Shown: positions 53,740-64,000 of the stretch, piece after piece
Numbering within the stretch: position 1 is the first letter of the stretch
How the letters are laid out: every line of letters starts with the position of its first letter
From: Scytolyngbya sp. HA4215-MV1
GTDB lineage: Bacteria > Cyanobacteriota > Cyanobacteriia > Leptolyngbyales > Leptolyngbyaceae
Direction of reading: 5' to 3'
DNA length: 64,000 nt
Assembly: GCA_019359045.1 (NCBI GenBank)
Contig: JAHHIA010000013.1
Coordinates: 62,001-126,000 of the forward strand
Notes under the pieces: generated by a model
Databases searched by the model: none
What the model was told of the DNA's origin: nothing
What the model saw: the letters and a program-made list of their open reading frames with translations, nothing else
Made by a program: the position numbers and the translations under genes

Positions 53740-55833
53740 TTGCAATTGCTCACAAATCGATGCCAAAAACAGTGGAAGGAGGACGGTGGTACATCTGAGT
53801 ACCTAACCATAGACGAATTAGCGATCGCACCTTCTATTAGGGCGCAATACCCCTTTTGTAAATTTATTAAGGTGAAAAATCACTCGGCACTATCCCAATG
53901 GCAGCAGGAAAACGGCTTCTATCTGTGGCAACGGATTGTCCAAATTGCTCTAGATGGTTCTGATTCAAAAAACAGGCTTCTTCGCATTGCATCAACATTA
54001 GGCAAAGCCTTCTATGCAGACTCTTGCCTGATCACGATCGGACATACTTACCTCACAACGCCTCAGTCAGCTTGCTGGACGAGTGCCCGTAAGCCTCTGC
54101 TGGTTGAGGATGACGCCTTACTCCTCAAGCATCCAACGATCGATGCCGTCTTGCGATCTTCGGCTTTCGTGAAGGTTTGTGATGCTCAGGCTGAGTTAGG
54201 TCATACATGGAACTTTGAACGAGTAAGAGCAATCATGGGGACATCGCTTCAATTGCAGGATCAGACCGATGGTTCATTGATATTACTGAAATCGGAACCT
54301 CACACCTGGACAGATTTTGAATGTGCAGGACTACAAGCCATATCGGATCAAGTGTCTGTGGCAGTCACTCAGTTTTACTGGCAGCAACAGCAACGCCAGT
54401 CCCACTATCAAGGAGTGGTTAATCAGCTTACAATGGCGATTCGCAACTCGGTTGGGTTAAACCAAATCCTGAAGCAGGCAATCGATGGCACAGCACAGGC
54501 ACTCCAAGTCGATCGTGGGATGATTCTACGGCTGAAATATTGGGACCCCCTCTTCAATCGACATACATCCCCTGAAACAATCCCGACCGCCAAAGCAACG
54601 ATTGTCTACAAATGGACGGGTGAAGAAAGTTCCGAAGTGGTTGAATTATCGGACGAAGAGACTGATCCTGCCCAATCAACCGCTCATGCCCTCGATCAGA
54701 CATTCTGGCTTGCCGACTGTTCCCTATGCCAGCAGGTTTTTCTAGATTCTGCTAAGCCAATTGTGATTACAGAACCGAAAGATTTATTAGCCTATGGAGC
54801 GCTCTCAGCAGTTGCCCCAGTGTTTGAAATGGATGTCATGTCTGCATTACTTCTGGTACCTTTGCAAAGCCAGCATAGTATTTTGGGCTTCCTTGTTTTT
54901 CAACATCGACAAACCCGATCGTGGCAACCTGAAGAGCAAGAACTGGTTGATCTCGTAGGTGCCCAGATCAGCACTGCTATCATTCAGTCAGAAACTTTAC
55001 GACAAGTGCAAGCTCTGGTTGATAAACGCACTGCCCAACTCAAACAAAGCCTTGAATTGCAAGCAAAGCTCTACGAAAAAACCCGCCAGCAAATTGACCA
55101 ACTCCGTCATCTCAATCAGCTCAAAGATGACTTTATTGATACCGTCAGTCACGAGTTGAGAACACCACTGACCAGTATGATGTTGGCAATTCGGATGCTA
55201 CGCGAAAGTGGACTATCCTCTCAGAAAAGTGCCCAATATCTCGATATTCTAGAACAGCAGTGTGCTCAGGAAACCAGTTTGGTCAACGATCTGCTGGCAT
55301 TACAAGAGCTGGAGTCACGCCACGTTTCCATGCAATTGCAATCCGTCGATCTGAAAGCGCTGATTCAAGAACTCGCCCAAGTCTTCCAACAACGCTGGGC
55401 AGAAAAAGGATTGACTCTAGATATTTCCTGTCCTGCTGAACCTTTCTTCATTCAAACCGATCTCAATAGCCTCAGAAGTATCCTGCAAGAACTCTTAACC
55501 AATGCAGGCAAGTATTCTGAACCCAACACGGTGGTGCAACTTCAGGCAAACCGACAGGAAAAAACTGGAAATTTTATTGAAATGAGTTTAACCAATATAG
55601 GACGAGGGATCTCGCCTCAAGAACTGCCCCATATTTTTGAGAAGTTTCGTCGCGGGCAGGGCGCAACCCAAAGTGCCATCCAGGGCACGGGATTGGGGTT
55701 GGCACTGGTGAAAAGCTTGGTGCAGAATTTGAATGGGACGATTGGTGTCACTAGCAATCAATCCAAAGAAATACAAGGGTATGAAACCTGTTTCACGCTG
55801 ACTTTGCCGCAATGTCCAGATACTCCTCGATAA
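53740..55833 (+). CDS. GAF-domain sensor histidine kinase
   Basis: 697 residues. Start uncertain: only TTG codons (53740, 53746) exist before residue 200. Two GAF-like domains (about 70-210 and 225-410), then a short coiled coil and a HisKA domain with the phosphorylated His in SHELRTPL (His471), then HATPase_c with N, G1 and G2 boxes (ELLTNAGKYSE, IFEKFRRGQGA, GTGLGLALVKSLV). No membrane helix, so soluble. The second GAF has two Cys nearby (WLADCSLCQQVF), not the canonical phytochrome Cys, so bilin binding is uncertain. No response regulator is adjacent. Confidence 0.87.
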   Translation: MQLLTNRCQKQWKEDGGTSEYLTIDELAIAPSIRAQYPFCKFIKVKNHSALSQWQQENGFYLWQRIVQIALDGSDSKNRLLRIASTLGKAFYADSCLITIGHTYLTTPQSACWTSARKPLLVEDDALLLKHPTIDAVLRSSAFVKVCDAQAELGHTWNFERVRAIMGTSLQLQDQTDGSLILLKSEPHTWTDFECAGLQAISDQVSVAVTQFYWQQQQRQSHYQGVVNQLTMAIRNSVGLNQILKQAIDGTAQALQVDRGMILRLKYWDPLFNRHTSPETIPTAKATIVYKWTGEESSEVVELSDEETDPAQSTAHALDQTFWLADCSLCQQVFLDSAKPIVITEPKDLLAYGALSAVAPVFEMDVMSALLLVPLQSQHSILGFLVFQHRQTRSWQPEEQELVDLVGAQISTAIIQSETLRQVQALVDKRTAQLKQSLELQAKLYEKTRQQIDQLRHLNQLKDDFIDTVSHELRTPLTSMMLAIRMLRESGLSSQKSAQYLDILEQQCAQETSLVNDLLALQELESRHVSMQLQSVDLKALIQELAQVFQQRWAEKGLTLDISCPAEPFFIQTDLNSLRSILQELLTNAGKYSEPNTVVQLQANRQEKTGNFIEMSLTNIGRGISPQELPHIFEKFRRGQGATQSAIQGTGLGLALVKSLVQNLNGTIGVTSNQSKEIQGYETCFTLTLPQCPDTPR

Positions 55834-57107: not shown

Positions 57108-57866
57108 TTACGCCTGTTGCTGGGAGGTGTGCAGAAGTTGGGTGAGGTTGGCGATCGTCGCAATTAGCTCTTCTGGCTCAACGGGCTTTGATAAACGCAT
57201 CTGAAATCCTGATCGCAAAACTTTGCGGTGTTCGGTTGTGAGGGTTGGCGGAGTTAGGGCGATCGCCACCCACGGATTTTCTGCTTTTCCCCCTGCGGTC
57301 TGAATTTGCTGAATCAAGCGGTAACCCATTTGATGGGGCAGTTCTGCATCGACGAGTAAAACTGCTGGTTGAACTTGATGCAATAACAGCATTGCCTGAC
57401 TGATATCCGTAGCCACACGGACTCTTGCCTGGCGAGACTGCAAAACTGTCTGTAGAGATTGCTGCAAACCGGTGTCCTGAGTCAACAACAGAACTGGCAA
57501 ACCTTGAAGGCTCAAAAAACTCTGCTGAAATGCAGGTAAGCGCTGTTTGCCCCACTCGCACATCAGTTCGACAATCGGTCGCAAGGTTTCGCCCATCGGT
57601 GTGAGTGAGTACTCAACCCGTGGGGGCGATTCTTTGTAGATGGTGCGATCGAGCAGTCCATCAGCTTGGAGTTCGCGCAATTGTTGAGTCAGCACTTTGG
57701 ACGTGATTCCCGAAATCAATTGTTTCAGTTCACTAAAGCTTCTGCGATCGTACCTGAGCCACCAGAGGATTACCCCTTTCCATTTGCCCCCAATCACCTC
57801 GATCGTGACTTCTATGGGGCAACCATATCGGCGGGATGGGGATGTCATCTTGTTATCAGTATCCAT
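57108..57866 (-). CDS. HxlR winged helix regulator fused to a receiver-like domain
   Basis: 252 residues from the ATG at 57866 (a GTG at 57905 and an ATG at 57848 are possible). Residues about 10-105: HxlR domain (YGCPIEVTIEVIGGKWKGVILWWL, RSFSELKQLISGITSKVLTQQLREL), including the N-terminal Cys that senses redox state in YodB/HypR relatives. Residues about 120-250: response-regulator-like fold (LPVLLLTQDTG, VLLVDAELPHQMGY with Asp173, MRLSKPVEPEEL with Lys227). The Asp/Lys pair suggests possible phosphorylation, but only one Asp remains in the acidic cluster. Divergent from the SMP-30 gene set. Confidence 0.82.
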   Translation of the reverse strand: MDTDNKMTSPSRRYGCPIEVTIEVIGGKWKGVILWWLRYDRRSFSELKQLISGITSKVLTQQLRELQADGLLDRTIYKESPPRVEYSLTPMGETLRPIVELMCEWGKQRLPAFQQSFLSLQGLPVLLLTQDTGLQQSLQTVLQSRQARVRVATDISQAMLLLHQVQPAVLLVDAELPHQMGYRLIQQIQTAGGKAENPWVAIALTPPTLTTEHRKVLRSGFQMRLSKPVEPEELIATIANLTQLLHTSQQQA

Positions 57867-57868
57867 TT

Positions 57869-57885
57869 GGTAACGATTGTCTACC
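57869..57885. promoter_or_regulatory. Inverted repeat between HxlR-REC and SMP-30 genes
   Basis: GGTA-ACGATTGTC-TACC lies directly at the start of the regulator and 38 bases before the SMP-30 start. HxlR regulators usually bind such short palindromes in the divergent promoter. A plausible autoregulatory site, unproven. Confidence 0.35.
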
Positions 57886-57922
57886 TGTGATATTTCTACT
57901 GGCACAACCGAGGAATAACCGC

Positions 57923-58840
57923 ATGTCTAGCTTGCCTCCTTTATTTGCAAATGTGCCAGTGGAACAGGTGCCAATTCGGCTGATTGCCGAGTTTCCACCC
58001 AACACGTTTTTGGAAAGTATTGCGATCGATCCCAGCAATACTCTATTCGTAACCAGCCATTTTGAGGGTAAGGTTTTTCGGATTGCGCCAGATGGCAAGT
58101 CAGAGATTTATGCGGCGATCGCTGGAAAAGCAACCGGACTGGTTCTGACACCCGAGGGTAACCTACTCCTGACTGGATGGGATGAGCAGAATGTTTGTAC
58201 AGTGTTTCAGATCACGACGGATGGTACGGTCAGTATCCTAGTACAGATACCAGACGCGATTTTTCTCAATGGCATCACCCCTCTGACAGCAACCTCCTAC
58301 CTAATTGCAGATTCTTATCGGGGGGCAATTTGGCAATTGGAGGTAATAGAGCCGAAAGTCAGCGTCTGGTTAGAGCATTCTTTGTTGGCAAGATCGAGTC
58401 CGGACAAAGAATTACCCGCTGTCAACGGACTCAAACGGTGGGGGAAATCATTATATGCTTCCAACACTGAAAAACAACTTGTGATTAGAATTCCGATCTC
58501 AGACGATTTTCAGCCTGGTGAGCCGGACATTTTTATTTCTCGGGTAAATCTGGATGACTTTGCGTTCGATCTCGATGGCAATCTCTATGGCACTACTCAC
58601 GTTTTTAATAGTGTGGTGAAAATCTCGCCAGAGGGACAAGTGACTATCCTGGCGCAGGCAGAAGCGGGCATGGTGGGCAGTACGGCGCTAGCATTTGGGC
58701 AGGCAGTAGACGATCGTACCGGAGTCTATGTCGTGACTAATGGTGGCATGTCATTGCCATTACCCAGTGGGCTTGAAGCCGCCAAAGTGGTGCGGTTAGA
58801 AGTGGGTGTAGCGGGTTTACCACTAATTGTGAAGAATTGA
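57923..58840 (+). CDS. SMP-30/gluconolactonase-like beta-propeller protein
   Basis: 305 residues from the ATG at 57923 with AGGA upstream. Six-bladed propeller family with repeated IDPSNTLFVTS, APDGK, TPEGNLLLTG, SPEGQVT elements. SMP-30 family members hydrolyse sugar lactones or serve as calcium-dependent esterases; the metal-binding Glu and Asp positions cannot be assigned safely here. No signal peptide seen. First gene of a set of three with the ABM-domain gene only 8 bases further on. Confidence 0.82.
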   Translation: MSSLPPLFANVPVEQVPIRLIAEFPPNTFLESIAIDPSNTLFVTSHFEGKVFRIAPDGKSEIYAAIAGKATGLVLTPEGNLLLTGWDEQNVCTVFQITTDGTVSILVQIPDAIFLNGITPLTATSYLIADSYRGAIWQLEVIEPKVSVWLEHSLLARSSPDKELPAVNGLKRWGKSLYASNTEKQLVIRIPISDDFQPGEPDIFISRVNLDDFAFDLDGNLYGTTHVFNSVVKISPEGQVTILAQAEAGMVGSTALAFGQAVDDRTGVYVVTNGGMSLPLPSGLEAAKVVRLEVGVAGLPLIVKN

Positions 58841-58848
58841 GGTCACCG

Positions 58849-59412
58849 ATGGCATTCTCCAACGATGAAGATTTGCCCGTTACAGTGGATGTGATGCAAC
58901 GGGTTAAACCGGGCTGTGAAGCAGAATTTGAGGAAGTTCTGTCAAATTTGATTGCTACTGCCAAAACCTTTGAAGGGTATTTGGGCGCAAATGTTTTTCG
59001 ATCGCAAGAAGCAGGCAATTCAGCCTATCGGATTGTGTTTAAGTTCGATCGTCTCAGCCACTTGCATCGCTGGGAAAATTCACCCATCCGGCAGCAGTGG
59101 CTGGCTCGTGCGGAACGATTAACCGTTGGGACAAGAACTTTTCATGTCGTGACTGGGTTGGAAACCTGGTTTACGCTGGTGACTCAACAGGCGATCTTAC
59201 CACCGCCGCGTTACAAGATGGTCATTGTAACCTTTCTGGCAATTTTCCCGGTCTTAAATCTATTGAATTGGGCACTGCGACCGTTGCTCGGCGATTTGCC
59301 TGGGTTGCTGCGTAGTTTTGTGGTCACACTGCTACTGATGCTGATTTCTACCTATGTGGTGATGCCTCGACTGACTCGGTTATTGGCTAGATGGCTGTAC
59401 CCCAAAGCATAG
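58849..59412 (+). CDS. ABM-domain (antibiotic biosynthesis monooxygenase-like) membrane protein
   Basis: 187 residues from the ATG at 58849 (GAGGT five bases upstream). N-terminal dimeric alpha/beta barrel domain of the ABM type (VTVDVMQRVKPGCEAEFEEVLSNLI, GYLGANVFRSQEAGNSAYRIVFKF), then two membrane helices (VIVTFLAIFPVLNLLNW, LLRSFVVTLLLMLISTYVV). ABM domains occur in quinol monooxygenases and heme degraders; in membrane-bound versions the role is unknown. The gene lies 8 bases after the SMP-30 stop codon. Confidence 0.82.
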   Translation: MAFSNDEDLPVTVDVMQRVKPGCEAEFEEVLSNLIATAKTFEGYLGANVFRSQEAGNSAYRIVFKFDRLSHLHRWENSPIRQQWLARAERLTVGTRTFHVVTGLETWFTLVTQQAILPPPRYKMVIVTFLAIFPVLNLLNWALRPLLGDLPGLLRSFVVTLLLMLISTYVVMPRLTRLLARWLYPKA

Positions 59413-59515
59413 TGGTGAAGCACTTGGGATATCGAAATTTCAATCAGAATATTGATGTATCGCTATTTTGTTTGAAATCGGTATCATTGATAGGGTTTCG
59501 AATGCGTATGAATTC

Positions 59516-60691
59516 ATGGAGCAAGACTTTCGAGCACTAGCAACTCAATACAAACAGGCGCTTCTGGAAGATGTTTTGCCCTTCTGGCAAAAGCACTCGA
59601 TCGACTGGGAACAGGGCGGCTATTTCACCTGTCTTGATCGGGCTGGCAACATCTTCGACACCGACAAATTTATCTGGTTGCAAAACCGTCAGGTATGGAT
59701 TTTCTCCATGCTTTACACCCAATTGGAAAGGCGCGAAGACTGGCTCAAAATTGCCGCTAACGGCGCCAACTTTTTGGCACAGCATGGCAGAGATGTGGAG
59801 GGCAACTGGTACTTTGCTTTGACCCGCGACGGTCAACCGCTGGTGCAACCCTACAACATCTTTTCCGACTGCTTTGCGGCGATGGCGTTTAGTAAGTATG
59901 CGCTGGCATCGGGCGAAGATTGGGCGAAGGAGGTCGCGCTCCAAGCTTATCAAAATGTGTTGCGTCGAAAAGACAACCCCAAAGGCAAATACACCAAAGC
60001 TTATCCCGGCACACGGGCGTTGAAATCTCTAGCAGTGCCGATGATTCTTGCGAATCTATCTTTGGAGATGAACTGGCTGTTGCCGGGTGAGCAACTAGAG
60101 CAAATTTTGGATGCAACGGTGCAGGAAGTGATGACCGATTTTCTCGATCCAGCGCGAGGGTTGATGTACGAGGCGGTTGCTTCCGATGGTTCCCTTGTAG
60201 ATTGTTTTGATGGACGATTGATCAATCCGGGGCACGGTATTGAGGCGATGTGGTTCATTATGGAGATTGCCGATCTCTACCAAGACCCTGCAACTATCCA
60301 GCAAGCAGTAGACGTGGTACTCAATATTCTTGACTTTGCCTGGGATCAGGAATATGGCGGTTTATTCTACTTTATGGATGCGGACGGGCACCCCCCCCAA
60401 CAATTGGAATGGGATCAAAAACTCTGGTGGGTGCATTTAGAATCGTTAGTGGCGCTGGCGCTGGGCTATCGACTGACTGGGCGGCAGGCGTGTTGGGATT
60501 GGTACCAGAAGTTGCATGAGTACGCCTGGTCACATTTTACCGATCCAGACTATGGAGAATGGTTTGGTTACCTAAATCGGCGAGGTGAGGTCTTGTTAAA
60601 TCTCAAAGGCGGTAAATGGAAAGGCTGTTTTCATGTACCGCGGGCGCTCTTTCTTTGCTGGCGAGAATTCGCTGCATTGAGTGGAGAATAA
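59516..60691 (+). CDS. AGE-family (N-acylglucosamine 2-epimerase) enzyme
   Basis: 391 residues from the ATG at 59516; TTG at 59468 is an alternative start. (Alpha/alpha)6-barrel epimerase; in cyanobacteria the AGE homologue epimerises N-acetylglucosamine and N-acetylmannosamine. The catalytic histidines are in [10 protein letters not shown] and CFHVPR, and [14 protein letters not shown] with its Arg is present. An eight-base C-run (60391-60398) codes for part of HPPQ. It follows the ABM gene by about 100 bases. Confidence 0.9.
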
Positions 60692-61172: not shown

Positions 61173-64000
61173 CTAAATAAACGAGAAGAAGAAGAAGTTG
61201 CTCGACAAGGTTCCTCCAACCCCACCATCAGAAACCGTAAATTTGAAGAAATCATTCCCCAATGGAGTAGTGATGAGTTCGTAACTGATGAGACCCTGGT
61301 CAATGTCTTGCTGAGTAAAGGTACTCCCAGTAGCCAGAGCAACCCCTGCCTTCTTCAGTACCCCATAGGTTGGAGCCTGGTTGATCGTGTAGGTGACTTG
61401 AACTGGAGTGTTGTCCACATCGCTGTATTGCAACACGTTGTTGTTGATAGCAACGGGGGCAAAGAGCACCGCAGGAATGGTCAGTTCCTGGTTAGCAACC
61501 AACAGGGGTGCATCGTTCACTGGATTAATGGTGATGGAGAAGGTGCGGTTGTTGAGCGGTGGTGTAGTGCCATCAGTAACGTTGAACCGGAAGAAATCGC
61601 TGATGTTTTCGTCGCCATTGTGGACGTAGGTAATCCGACCCAGGCTGATATCTTCCTGGGTAAAGGTATCGTTAATCGCCAGAGCAACACCGTTCTTCTT
61701 CAAGATGCCATTGGCAGGTAAAACCGTTAAGGTATAGACGATCGCCGAAGCGGGCGTATCCGGATCGGTGACCTTCAAGAAGCTATCACTAATGTTGAGT
61801 GCGCCCCCTTCATCAATGATTAACGGGATGTTGGTTGTCAGCACAGGTGGGTCGGGCTGAGGTGTGACATTGATAGTGAAGGCAGTCGTGCCAATGTTGC
61901 CCCCTGATCCGTCGGTCAGGGTAAAGGTAAAGTTGTCGATCGTGGTCTCGCTACCATTATGGAAGTAGGAGAGACGTCCTGCATCAATATCTGCCTGGGT
62001 AAAGGTACTGCCGTTTGTCAAAGTCGTGGTACCCAACCGCAAACTGCCATTGAGCGGTCCACGGGTCAGGGTGTAGACCAGTTGTGCCGTAGTGTTGTCG
62101 GGATCAATCGCTTTCAAGAACGCTGAGGTAATGGAAATATTGCCGTTCTCGTTGACCGTGACGGGGAGATTGAGCAGGGTAGGCACATCGTTTACTGGAG
62201 AAACGGTGATGCTAAAAGGTGTGGCGGGAATACTGCTCCCGGCAGAATCACTAACGGTGAAGACAAAGCCATCGCTGGTATTTTCGCCACCCAGATGCAG
62301 ATAGTTTATTAATCCGGCATCAATGTCTGCCTGGGTAAAGGTATCGCCTGAGTTGAGAATGGTCGTTCCGCGCCGCAAACTGCCATTGCTGGGAGCGGAT
62401 TGTAAGGTGTAGGTAATTTGACCAGGGGCATCTTCCGCATCAGTGACTTTCAGGAGACTACCCGTAATCTTGAGCGATTTTCCTTCAACAACAAACAGGG
62501 GATTGTTGTTAACTAAAAGGGGCGGATCATTGTCTGGGGCGACGACGATCGCGATCGTATCCAGGTCGCTCTTCGCTCCGCCACTGCCCGTATTGCCCTG
62601 ATCATTGACATTGATGCTCAGTGTATCGTTACCAAAGAAGTTAAGCACGCCTCGGTATGTCAGGTTATTCAGTGCGGTATTAATATCCGTCAGGTTACCG
62701 GTGAAGGTGAGCACGCTATCGTCGGTGCCATCTCCAGCCGTGAAAGTTAAACCATTAATCGAACTGAGAGTAATCACCCCATGGGTGACTGAAAGGGTAA
62801 CTTTCACCGCACTCAGCCCAGCATCCACATCGGCAATGCTGATACCGCCAATGATTAGGTCAAGGTCTTCCAGGATATTTTGCGGTCCGGCGGGGACAGT
62901 GATAATTGGGGCATCATTGGTAGGAGTTACCGTGACAGCGATCGTCTTGGTATCGCTGAGAGGACCGCCCACGCCTGTATTGCCCTGGTCATCGATCGCC
63001 AGGGTAATCGTATCGGCTCCATTGAAATCTTGATTGCCCCGATAGCGCAAGTTGGTCAAGGCAGCCTTAATATTCGCCAACGTGCCCGTAAAGGTCATGC
63101 TGCCATCTGCCGTGCCATCGCCCACGGTAAAGGTGAGACCTGTTAGCGCGCTCAGTGTCAAAACACCGTTTGCCGCAGACAGGGTGACGACAAGTTGCCC
63201 GGCAGCTGAATCCACATCATTGACATTAATGCCACTAATCACCAAATCTGTGTCTTCTGCCACGGTCTTGGCGCCTGGCACCGTAATCACAGGTGCGTCA
63301 TCCACCGCGTTGATGGTGATGTTGAGGGTATCGCTGTCAGTCTTGGCTCCGCCCGCTCCAGTGCTGCCCAGATCGCTCACACTCAAATTTAGGGTATCTG
63401 TGCCATTAAAGTTGGCATCGCCGCGATAGGTGAGGTCGTTGAGAGCCGTGTTGATGTTTGCCAGCGTGCCCGTGAAGGTCATACTCTTGCTGCCATTGCT
63501 GCCAGCCGTGAAGGTCAGCCCGGTGACGGAACTGAGGTTAATGAGGCCCTGGGCAACGGACAAGCTGACCCGCAGCGTACCAGAAAGGGCATCGATATCG
63601 GTAATGCTAATGCCGCTAAGGATGGCGATCGCATCCTCATCGACCGTAACTCCGCCAGTGGGCACCACGATCGCCGGAGCATCATTCACGGCGGTGACAT
63701 TGACATTAATTGTTTTGCTGGTGGAAAGGGGTGCTCCGCCTGTGTTGCCCTGATCATCCACACTGAGATTGATGATATCTGCGCCATTAAAGTCCAGATT
63801 GCCTTGATAGGTCAGTCCTGCGAGAGCTGCTTGAATATCACTCAAACTCCCTGTGAAAGTCATACTGCTATCGCTGGTGCCGTCCCCAGTGGTAAAGGTC
63901 AAGCCAGTCAGTGAACTGAGGGTGAGTTGTCCATTGGCAGCCGTTAGGGTAACCAGCAGTTGCCCACTGCCTGCATCAATGTCAGCGAGGGTGATGCCTG
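61173..64000 (-). CDS. Large cadherin/CSPG-repeat surface protein, C-terminal part (5' end outside window)
   Basis: At least 940 residues, running off the right edge of the window. From the N-terminal side there are about three complete and one partial cadherin-like repeats (DEDAIAILSGISITDIDALSGTL, GLTFTAGDGTDDSVLTFTGNLTD), then four CSPG/NG2-like repeats (TFTQADIDAGLINYLH, DTFTQEDISLGRITYVH, STFTQQDIDQGLISYEL). VNDAP and TFTQxDI motifs recur. Such proteins are secreted adhesins, often exported by type I systems. The end is unusual: NFFFFSFI followed by a stop, with no recognised C-terminal export or sorting domain. Confidence 0.85.
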   Translation of the reverse strand, partial: GITLADIDAGSGQLLVTLTAANGQLTLSSLTGLTFTTGDGTSDSSMTFTGSLSDIQAALAGLTYQGNLDFNGADIINLSVDDQGNTGGAPLSTSKTINVNVTAVNDAPAIVVPTGGVTVDEDAIAILSGISITDIDALSGTLRVSLSVAQGLINLSSVTGLTFTAGSNGSKSMTFTGTLANINTALNDLTYRGDANFNGTDTLNLSVSDLGSTGAGGAKTDSDTLNITINAVDDAPVITVPGAKTVAEDTDLVISGINVNDVDSAAGQLVVTLSAANGVLTLSALTGLTFTVGDGTADGSMTFTGTLANIKAALTNLRYRGNQDFNGADTITLAIDDQGNTGVGGPLSDTKTIAVTVTPTNDAPIITVPAGPQNILEDLDLIIGGISIADVDAGLSAVKVTLSVTHGVITLSSINGLTFTAGDGTDDSVLTFTGNLTDINTALNNLTYRGVLNFFGNDTLSINVNDQGNTGSGGAKSDLDTIAIVVAPDNDPPLLVNNNPLFVVEGKSLKITGSLLKVTDAEDAPGQITYTLQSAPSNGSLRRGTTILNSGDTFTQADIDAGLINYLHLGGENTSDGFVFTVSDSAGSSIPATPFSITVSPVNDVPTLLNLPVTVNENGNISITSAFLKAIDPDNTTAQLVYTLTRGPLNGSLRLGTTTLTNGSTFTQADIDAGRLSYFHNGSETTIDNFTFTLTDGSGGNIGTTAFTINVTPQPDPPVLTTNIPLIIDEGGALNISDSFLKVTDPDTPASAIVYTLTVLPANGILKKNGVALAINDTFTQEDISLGRITYVHNGDENISDFFRFNVTDGTTPPLNNRTFSITINPVNDAPLLVANQELTIPAVLFAPVAINNNVLQYSDVDNTPVQVTYTINQAPTYGVLKKAGVALATGSTFTQQDIDQGLISYELITTPLGNDFFKFTVSDGGVGGTLSSNFFFFSFI

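Follow-up and report, generated by a model that had tools for sequence, protein, structure and literature searches.

A cyanobacterial HxlR-receiver fusion regulator, its candidate operator and its divergent enzyme genes

The MarR/DUF24 (HxlR) regulators, which include YodB, CatR, HypR, QsrR and HxlR, share a winged helix with an N-terminal cysteine, detoxification-type targets, and a short palindromic site at the regulator. Here we study a regulator of this kind encoded in a 64,000-nucleotide stretch of the cyanobacterium Scytolyngbya sp. HA4215-MV1 (contig JAHHIA010000013.1, positions 62,001 to 126,000), the whole of which we call the window. The window protein has the common winged helix and cysteine, and its gene likewise carries a candidate palindromic operator at its head, but in this protein and its cyanobacterial relatives a C-terminal pseudo-receiver has been added. 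The candidate targets differ as well: SMP-30-like (SGL) enzymes, ABM-domain proteins, short-chain dehydrogenases (SDR), aldehyde dehydrogenases and DJ-1-SGL proteins in the cyanobacteria, versus azoreductase, nitroreductase and hxlAB for the DUF24 regulators. The fusion is a genuine variant, found in cyanobacteria, of a regulator kind already known, and we came upon no description of a bacterial HxlR-receiver fusion in the open-access literature searched.

Several other systems resemble this one in part. Halobacteria possess an HxlR-REC-HalX architecture, and archaea the winged helix-turn-helix-receiver (wHTH-REC) regulators LtrR and FilR1 (PMC5847659), in which the DNA-binding domain likewise comes first and the receiver second. 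The likeness is one of domain order; the cyanobacterial fusions are without HalX or DUF1724 and their receiver is mostly degenerate. The streptococcal RitR, an atypical regulator, lacks the Asp in its receiver and has a redox cysteine in its linker (PMC5965902). It resembles our proposal in that a pseudo-receiver protein is proposed to be switched by thiol chemistry and not by phosphorylation. But RitR is a decayed response regulator, with the receiver first and a DNA-binding domain of the OmpR type, whereas in the cyanobacterial fusion the putative sensing cysteine belongs to HxlR and the receiver Asp is retained. The quinone-binding pseudo-receivers of CikA and KaiA (PMC12632262) are likewise cyanobacterial and belong to redox-related regulators; a profile search of the PDB with the window receiver returned ordinary receivers (PleD, PhoB), and a common origin with CikA and KaiA was dropped because neither is found within the 60 best matches. 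Finally, the SDR-SGL-ABM operons of Nostocales agree in gene order and in their SGL and ABM families, but they lie divergent from a LysR gene instead of an HxlR-receiver gene, and no AGTTACC operator was found in the LysR-linked loci tested.

The regulator gene and its parts are located as follows.
57108..57866, minus strand: HxlR-receiver fusion regulator, 252 amino acids from ATG 57866, with an alternative start at ATG 57848
57819-57821, minus strand: codon of Cys16 (YGCP), just ahead of the HxlR domain
57534..57797, minus strand: HxlR winged-helix domain, residues 24-111, by Pfam match
57153..57482, minus strand: C-terminal pseudo-receiver, residues 129-238, by Pfam, structure model and structure matches
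57348-57350, minus strand: codon of Asp173, at the end of strand 3

Both domains lie in the single open frame 57108-57866: HxlR at the N-terminus (PF01638, 7.9e-31, 106.2 bits against a Pfam cut-off of 20.8), followed by the receiver (PF00072, Response_reg, 1.6e-11, 45 bits, above its cut-off). Translation more likely starts at ATG 57866 or ATG 57848 than at GTG 57905. The genome itself contains no second full-length copy; in its remaining matches the HxlR gene or the receiver stands by itself. When one genome per species was scanned, 11 further fusions emerged, all cyanobacterial, at 42-50% identity; more came from a profile search that covered 390 genomes in the class, which brought the total to 28 distinct proteins including the window protein, again all cyanobacterial. 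Since the search beyond cyanobacteria used only patterns from the window protein, distant fusions in other phyla are possible. The initial annotation had described an HxlR domain fused to a receiver-like domain, with an N-terminal cysteine and the receiver Asp and Lys in place, and had asked whether the fusion was unique to this assembly. It is not, for the two-domain frame recurs in 27 other proteins, and Cys16, Asp173 (LLVDAELP) and the Lys (LSKP) are all present. The fusion is genuine, and neither an assembly nor a frame artefact.

At the head of the regulator gene we find a conserved element.
57858..57875, minus strand: candidate operator CGTTACCAAATGGATACT, consensus AGTTACC-AAAT-GGATACT, overlapping ATG 57866, by conservation at regulator starts

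Across the family, comparison of upstream regions located AGTTACCAAATGGATACT where the regulator gene begins, and an exact 16-mer of the element is present in the window. The element is an 18-bp imperfect palindrome, AGTwwCC / GGwwACT with a 4-bp centre; at most loci the closest match in 260 bp differs from it at no more than four positions. Because its ATG is out of frame or an impossible start in at least eight loci (e.g. L022, L190, L193, L196, L197, L200, L201 and L207; loci are numbered with the prefix L), coding does not explain its conservation. The full pattern matches only once in the 6.6-Mb genome, at 57858-57875 in the window, which fits a regulator of one locus. A wider regulon in the same genome was considered and rejected, as a pattern search allowing up to two mismatches gave 114 matches versus 118 for a reversed-pattern control. 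No convincing match turned up at SGL-ABM loci that have no HxlR gene beside them (two matches near SGL genes in L212 and L228 stand at the four-mismatch limit and were judged weak), and the same operator was not found in Firmicutes relatives. We regard the 18-bp element as a newly found candidate operator. The binding site first proposed, 57869-57885, did not survive comparison: its dyad, GGTA-N9-TACC, occurs in the window only, among 16 upstream regions.

Related elements were also seen beside HxlR genes that stand alone. In six loci (L151, L152, L154, L078, L081 and L082) a solo HxlR gene lies divergent from a pirin/quercetinase-like gene, with a near-identical operator variant, AGTTACCAAAAAGATACT; this looks like a sister regulon. 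Two further solo HxlR genes adjoining ABM genes carry ACTTACT-TTTT-AGTAAGT or a close variant, with identical spacing.

Facing the regulator lie two genes that recur in the family.
57923..58840, plus strand: SGL six-bladed-propeller-type enzyme gene, 305 amino acids, the divergent target candidate
58849..59412, plus strand: ABM-domain protein of 187 amino acids, the C-terminal part having two hydrophobic segments (PF03992, 3.9e-09, 37.0 against 23.1 bits), a candidate second gene of an operon with SGL

The initial annotation had called the first of these an SMP-30 propeller. The label is loose, as the window protein scores 24.3 bits, just under the Pfam cut-off of 26.3 (its relative in L196 scores 48.0), but its family profile is very close to the solved structure 2p4o (1.3e-163). 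Recurrence of such neighbours had been named as the condition for a functional module. An SGL gene is divergent at 12 of the 28 fusion loci (the window, L011, L014, L019, L190, L192, L193, L196, L197, L199, L200 and L204), eight of these 12 have ABM as well, and an SDR gene often accompanies them; the idea of a module therefore survives. The further divergent partners are SDR (L009, L012, L013 and L015-L018), an alpha/beta hydrolase (L009, L019, L196), an aldehyde dehydrogenase (L193, L198, L199, L202), a DJ-1/PfpI-SGL fusion protein (L192, L196), a Zn-alcohol dehydrogenase (L201) or NmrA (L205). Upstream sequence is available for 26 loci, and in 23 of them the fusion lies opposite SGL/ABM or an enzyme of dehydrogenase, hydrolase or NmrA type; in the exceptions it lies opposite an AraC-type gene (L191) or a porin (L194, L203). 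The partner enzymes look like a reactive-carbonyl/electrophile kit. In the DJ-1/PfpI-SGL proteins (L192:9457-11145 and L196:5071-6648) the SGL propeller stands behind a DJ-1/PfpI domain in one protein, an independent-looking second link of the propeller family to carbonyl chemistry. In many other cyanobacteria the SGL-ABM pair has no HxlR gene beside it and frequently lies divergent from a LysR gene, so that from gene order the two enzymes look like a more widespread unit among which regulators have been exchanged.

We now turn to the chemistry that the HxlR domain might perform. Its solved relatives include YybR/HypR (4a5m, 5.8e-30) and HxlR (7bze, 1.4e-29), together with 5hs7 and 4hqe, and in HypR, CatR and others the sensing residue is the N-terminal cysteine (PMC6943732; PMC7835342). 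Cys103 is found in 27 of the 28 fusions. Cys16 is conserved to the same extent, being replaced by Ser in L203 alone, and because of this near-invariance, together with the dehydrogenase, DJ-1-SGL, hydrolase and ABM neighbours, we favour a thiol switch whose signal would be a reactive carbonyl or quinone. The redox- or quinone-responsive pathway suggested in the initial annotation is made more plausible by the same cysteine and by the aldehyde- and quinone-detoxification-type partners, though as an interpretation and not as an observation. Formaldehyde sensing in the manner of B. subtilis HxlR, by contrast, is unlikely, and the Cys-Lys mechanism was ruled out, because the methylene-bridging Lys (Lys13 in that protein) is replaced by Ile18 in the window protein (C16-P17-I18); none of 12 aligned fusions has Lys at this position.

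The receiver presents a different picture. A full-length structure model, weak over the HxlR part (mean predicted local distance difference test score, pLDDT, of 65) and used for the receiver only, shows the (beta-alpha)5 order of a receiver with Asp173 closing strand 3, and its best structure matches are receivers. The conserved Thr and Lys are both present. The acidic pair, however, is by position Thr-Gln (LLLTQD); the initial annotation had credited the protein with one acidic residue of this pair, but neither is acidic, because the Asp it counted sits one residue further on. A pseudo-receiver is defined as lacking at least one of five residues (DD, D, T, K) (PMC12632262), and 27 of the 28 proteins qualify, the window protein (DD missing) included. 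Across the family the Asp is kept in 27 of 28 and the Mg-binding pair is complete in one, L010, which has all five residues; T or S is found in nine and K in 18. The ratio of nonsynonymous to synonymous substitution (dN/dS) is 0.15-0.57 for the receiver versus 0.06-0.12 for HxlR, by a simple counting method in which dS is saturated for distant pairs, so that purifying selection on the receiver is present but weaker. As the Asp is so widely kept and the domain is under purifying selection, the receiver is not mere debris.

It is possible to ask what happens when the receiver is absent. In a tree of 46 HxlR domains and 108 columns, six receiver-less Pseudanabaenaceae-type HxlR proteins form one group (100/99). 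A single clade of all fusions is rejected by the approximately unbiased (AU) test (p 0.0057), while a clade of the fusions plus this group is not (p 0.139); since the group was picked after the first tree had been seen, the AU p value is optimistic. We therefore dropped the view that Pseudanabaenaceae preserve an ancestral receiver-free state, and the simplest reading is one gain of the receiver and one loss in Pseudanabaenaceae, downstream of whose HxlR genes we found no convincing receiver remnant. The operator still lies immediately upstream of HxlR in three of these loci (L020, L022, L207), and four (L020, L022, L206, L207) retain SGL-ABM; in L021 and L023 neither operator nor SGL-ABM was found. 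Because receiver-less loci keep both, the receiver seems dispensable for DNA binding and for target choice. In L206 (L206:7359-8810) an intact operator is followed by a transposase gene ahead of the HxlR gene, which parts the regulator from its candidate site.

Taking these patterns together, we think it somewhat more probable than not that the protein is an autoregulatory, thiol-based electrophile switch of the HxlR/DUF24 kind with a decayed, largely phosphorylation-independent accessory receiver. The regulator would be a local one-component protein that binds the 18-bp pseudo-palindrome where its own gene begins, and would thereby control that gene as well as the divergent SGL-ABM promoter some 50 bases off. 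When a reactive carbonyl, a quinone or a comparable electrophile modified or oxidised Cys16, and perhaps Cys103 too, DNA binding would alter and more of the enzymes clearing that compound would be made, the protein acting either as a repressor or as an activator. The receiver would have been acquired in cyanobacteria, most simply once, and would have decayed to a pseudo-receiver, an accessory module for dimerisation or interaction that works largely independently of phosphorylation.

Several observations weigh against this proposal. The Asp is retained and the receiver is under purifying selection, and changes of DD, T or K need not abolish phosphorylation (PMC12632262), so that some phosphorylation of the receiver may occur. 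A scan between the regulator and SGL genes found no consensus sigma-70 promoter. Three loci (L194, L195, L203) have the fusion but a poor operator match, and in two of them, L194 and L203, the fusion faces the porin. The nesting of the receiver-less group within the fusions, moreover, rests on the 108 columns of the alignment.

The near-invariant Asp173 might instead indicate a working response regulator of reversed domain order, in which a histidine kinase phosphorylates Asp173 and so governs HxlR dimerisation and DNA binding. A kinase is available for this role.
53740-55833, plus strand: GAF-HisKA-HATPase histidine kinase that lacks a receiver, 1.3 kb away from the regulator gene

The Thr and Lys kept in the window protein, the five residues of L010 and the wing-helix-receiver order of archaeal LtrR and FilR1 (PMC5847659) all agree with such a scheme. 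But the Mg-holding pair is incomplete in 27 of 28 proteins, Thr and Lys are lost in many, and Pseudanabaenaceae manage without a receiver. The kinase itself was rejected as a conserved partner, having no recurrent counterpart at other fusion loci (the hybrid kinases at L190 and L013 differ in architecture), and we consider this scheme unlikely. Somewhat less probable still is a pseudo-receiver that senses a ligand, such as a quinone, and is combined with the HxlR thiol switch. The quinone-binding pseudo-receivers of CikA and KaiA (PMC12632262) offer a precedent, the host is a cyanobacterium, the ABM and NmrA/alcohol-dehydrogenase-type partners suit quinone chemistry, and the domain is under selection; yet its profile matches are the ordinary receivers noted above, with CikA and KaiA outside the 60 best, and it varies across the family (mean column identity 40%), and no conserved pocket was recognised in it. 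We hold it similarly doubtful that one protein receives two redox inputs, covalent at Cys16 and reversible at the pseudo-receiver, the latter given up by Pseudanabaenaceae. Least probable, in our estimation, is that the regulator controls only itself, the divergent enzymes staying beside it through chance or a common promoter space and having some other control. The element is indeed fixed at the regulator start while its distance to the divergent gene varies, but divergent linkage is kept across families, related enzyme types fill the same divergent slot, and the SGL start of the window lies no more than some 50 bases from the element.

A 2025 review (PMC12632262) called the switching of bacterial pseudo-receivers a mystery. 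Since one lineage seems to have retained everything but the receiver, this family allows one to ask about the function of crippled receivers. It forms a natural experiment, with all five residues in L010, graded decay in many members, and one lineage in which the receiver was apparently lost, for which the candidate operator and target genes would provide a direct readout. On the electrophile switch that we favour, cyanobacteria would also have a small electrophile-response module, and the propeller so far known as a solved 'hypothetical protein' (2p4o) would gain a regulatory setting.

The arrangement described in the initial annotation, with SGL divergent, ABM 8 bases later and an epimerase next, is indeed what we see, but the last of these is an incidental downstream neighbour and not part of the module, as it recurs at none of the other fusion loci compared.
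59516..60691, plus strand: N-acyl-D-glucosamine 2-epimerase (AGE), NF052547, 667 bits against a cut-off of 600

A second SGL gene in the same genome (G000:C6:9362-10262, L138) consists of two open frames that part around residue 176-202. A similar split is seen in a relative (G589:C1:2818870-2819842, L229); a frameshift, an insertion or a genuine two-gene form could each account for it. Behind the solo HxlR gene of L207, a run of genes (L207:8467-12749) encodes SnoaL, SDR fragments, an F420-type oxidoreductase, a muconolactone-isomerase-like protein, an alcohol dehydrogenase, SGL and ABM, which suggests aromatic or polyketide-like chemistry. Beyond the epimerase gene, a long open frame of repetitive character, in which adhesin-like units recur (61173-63902, minus strand), reaches the window edge.

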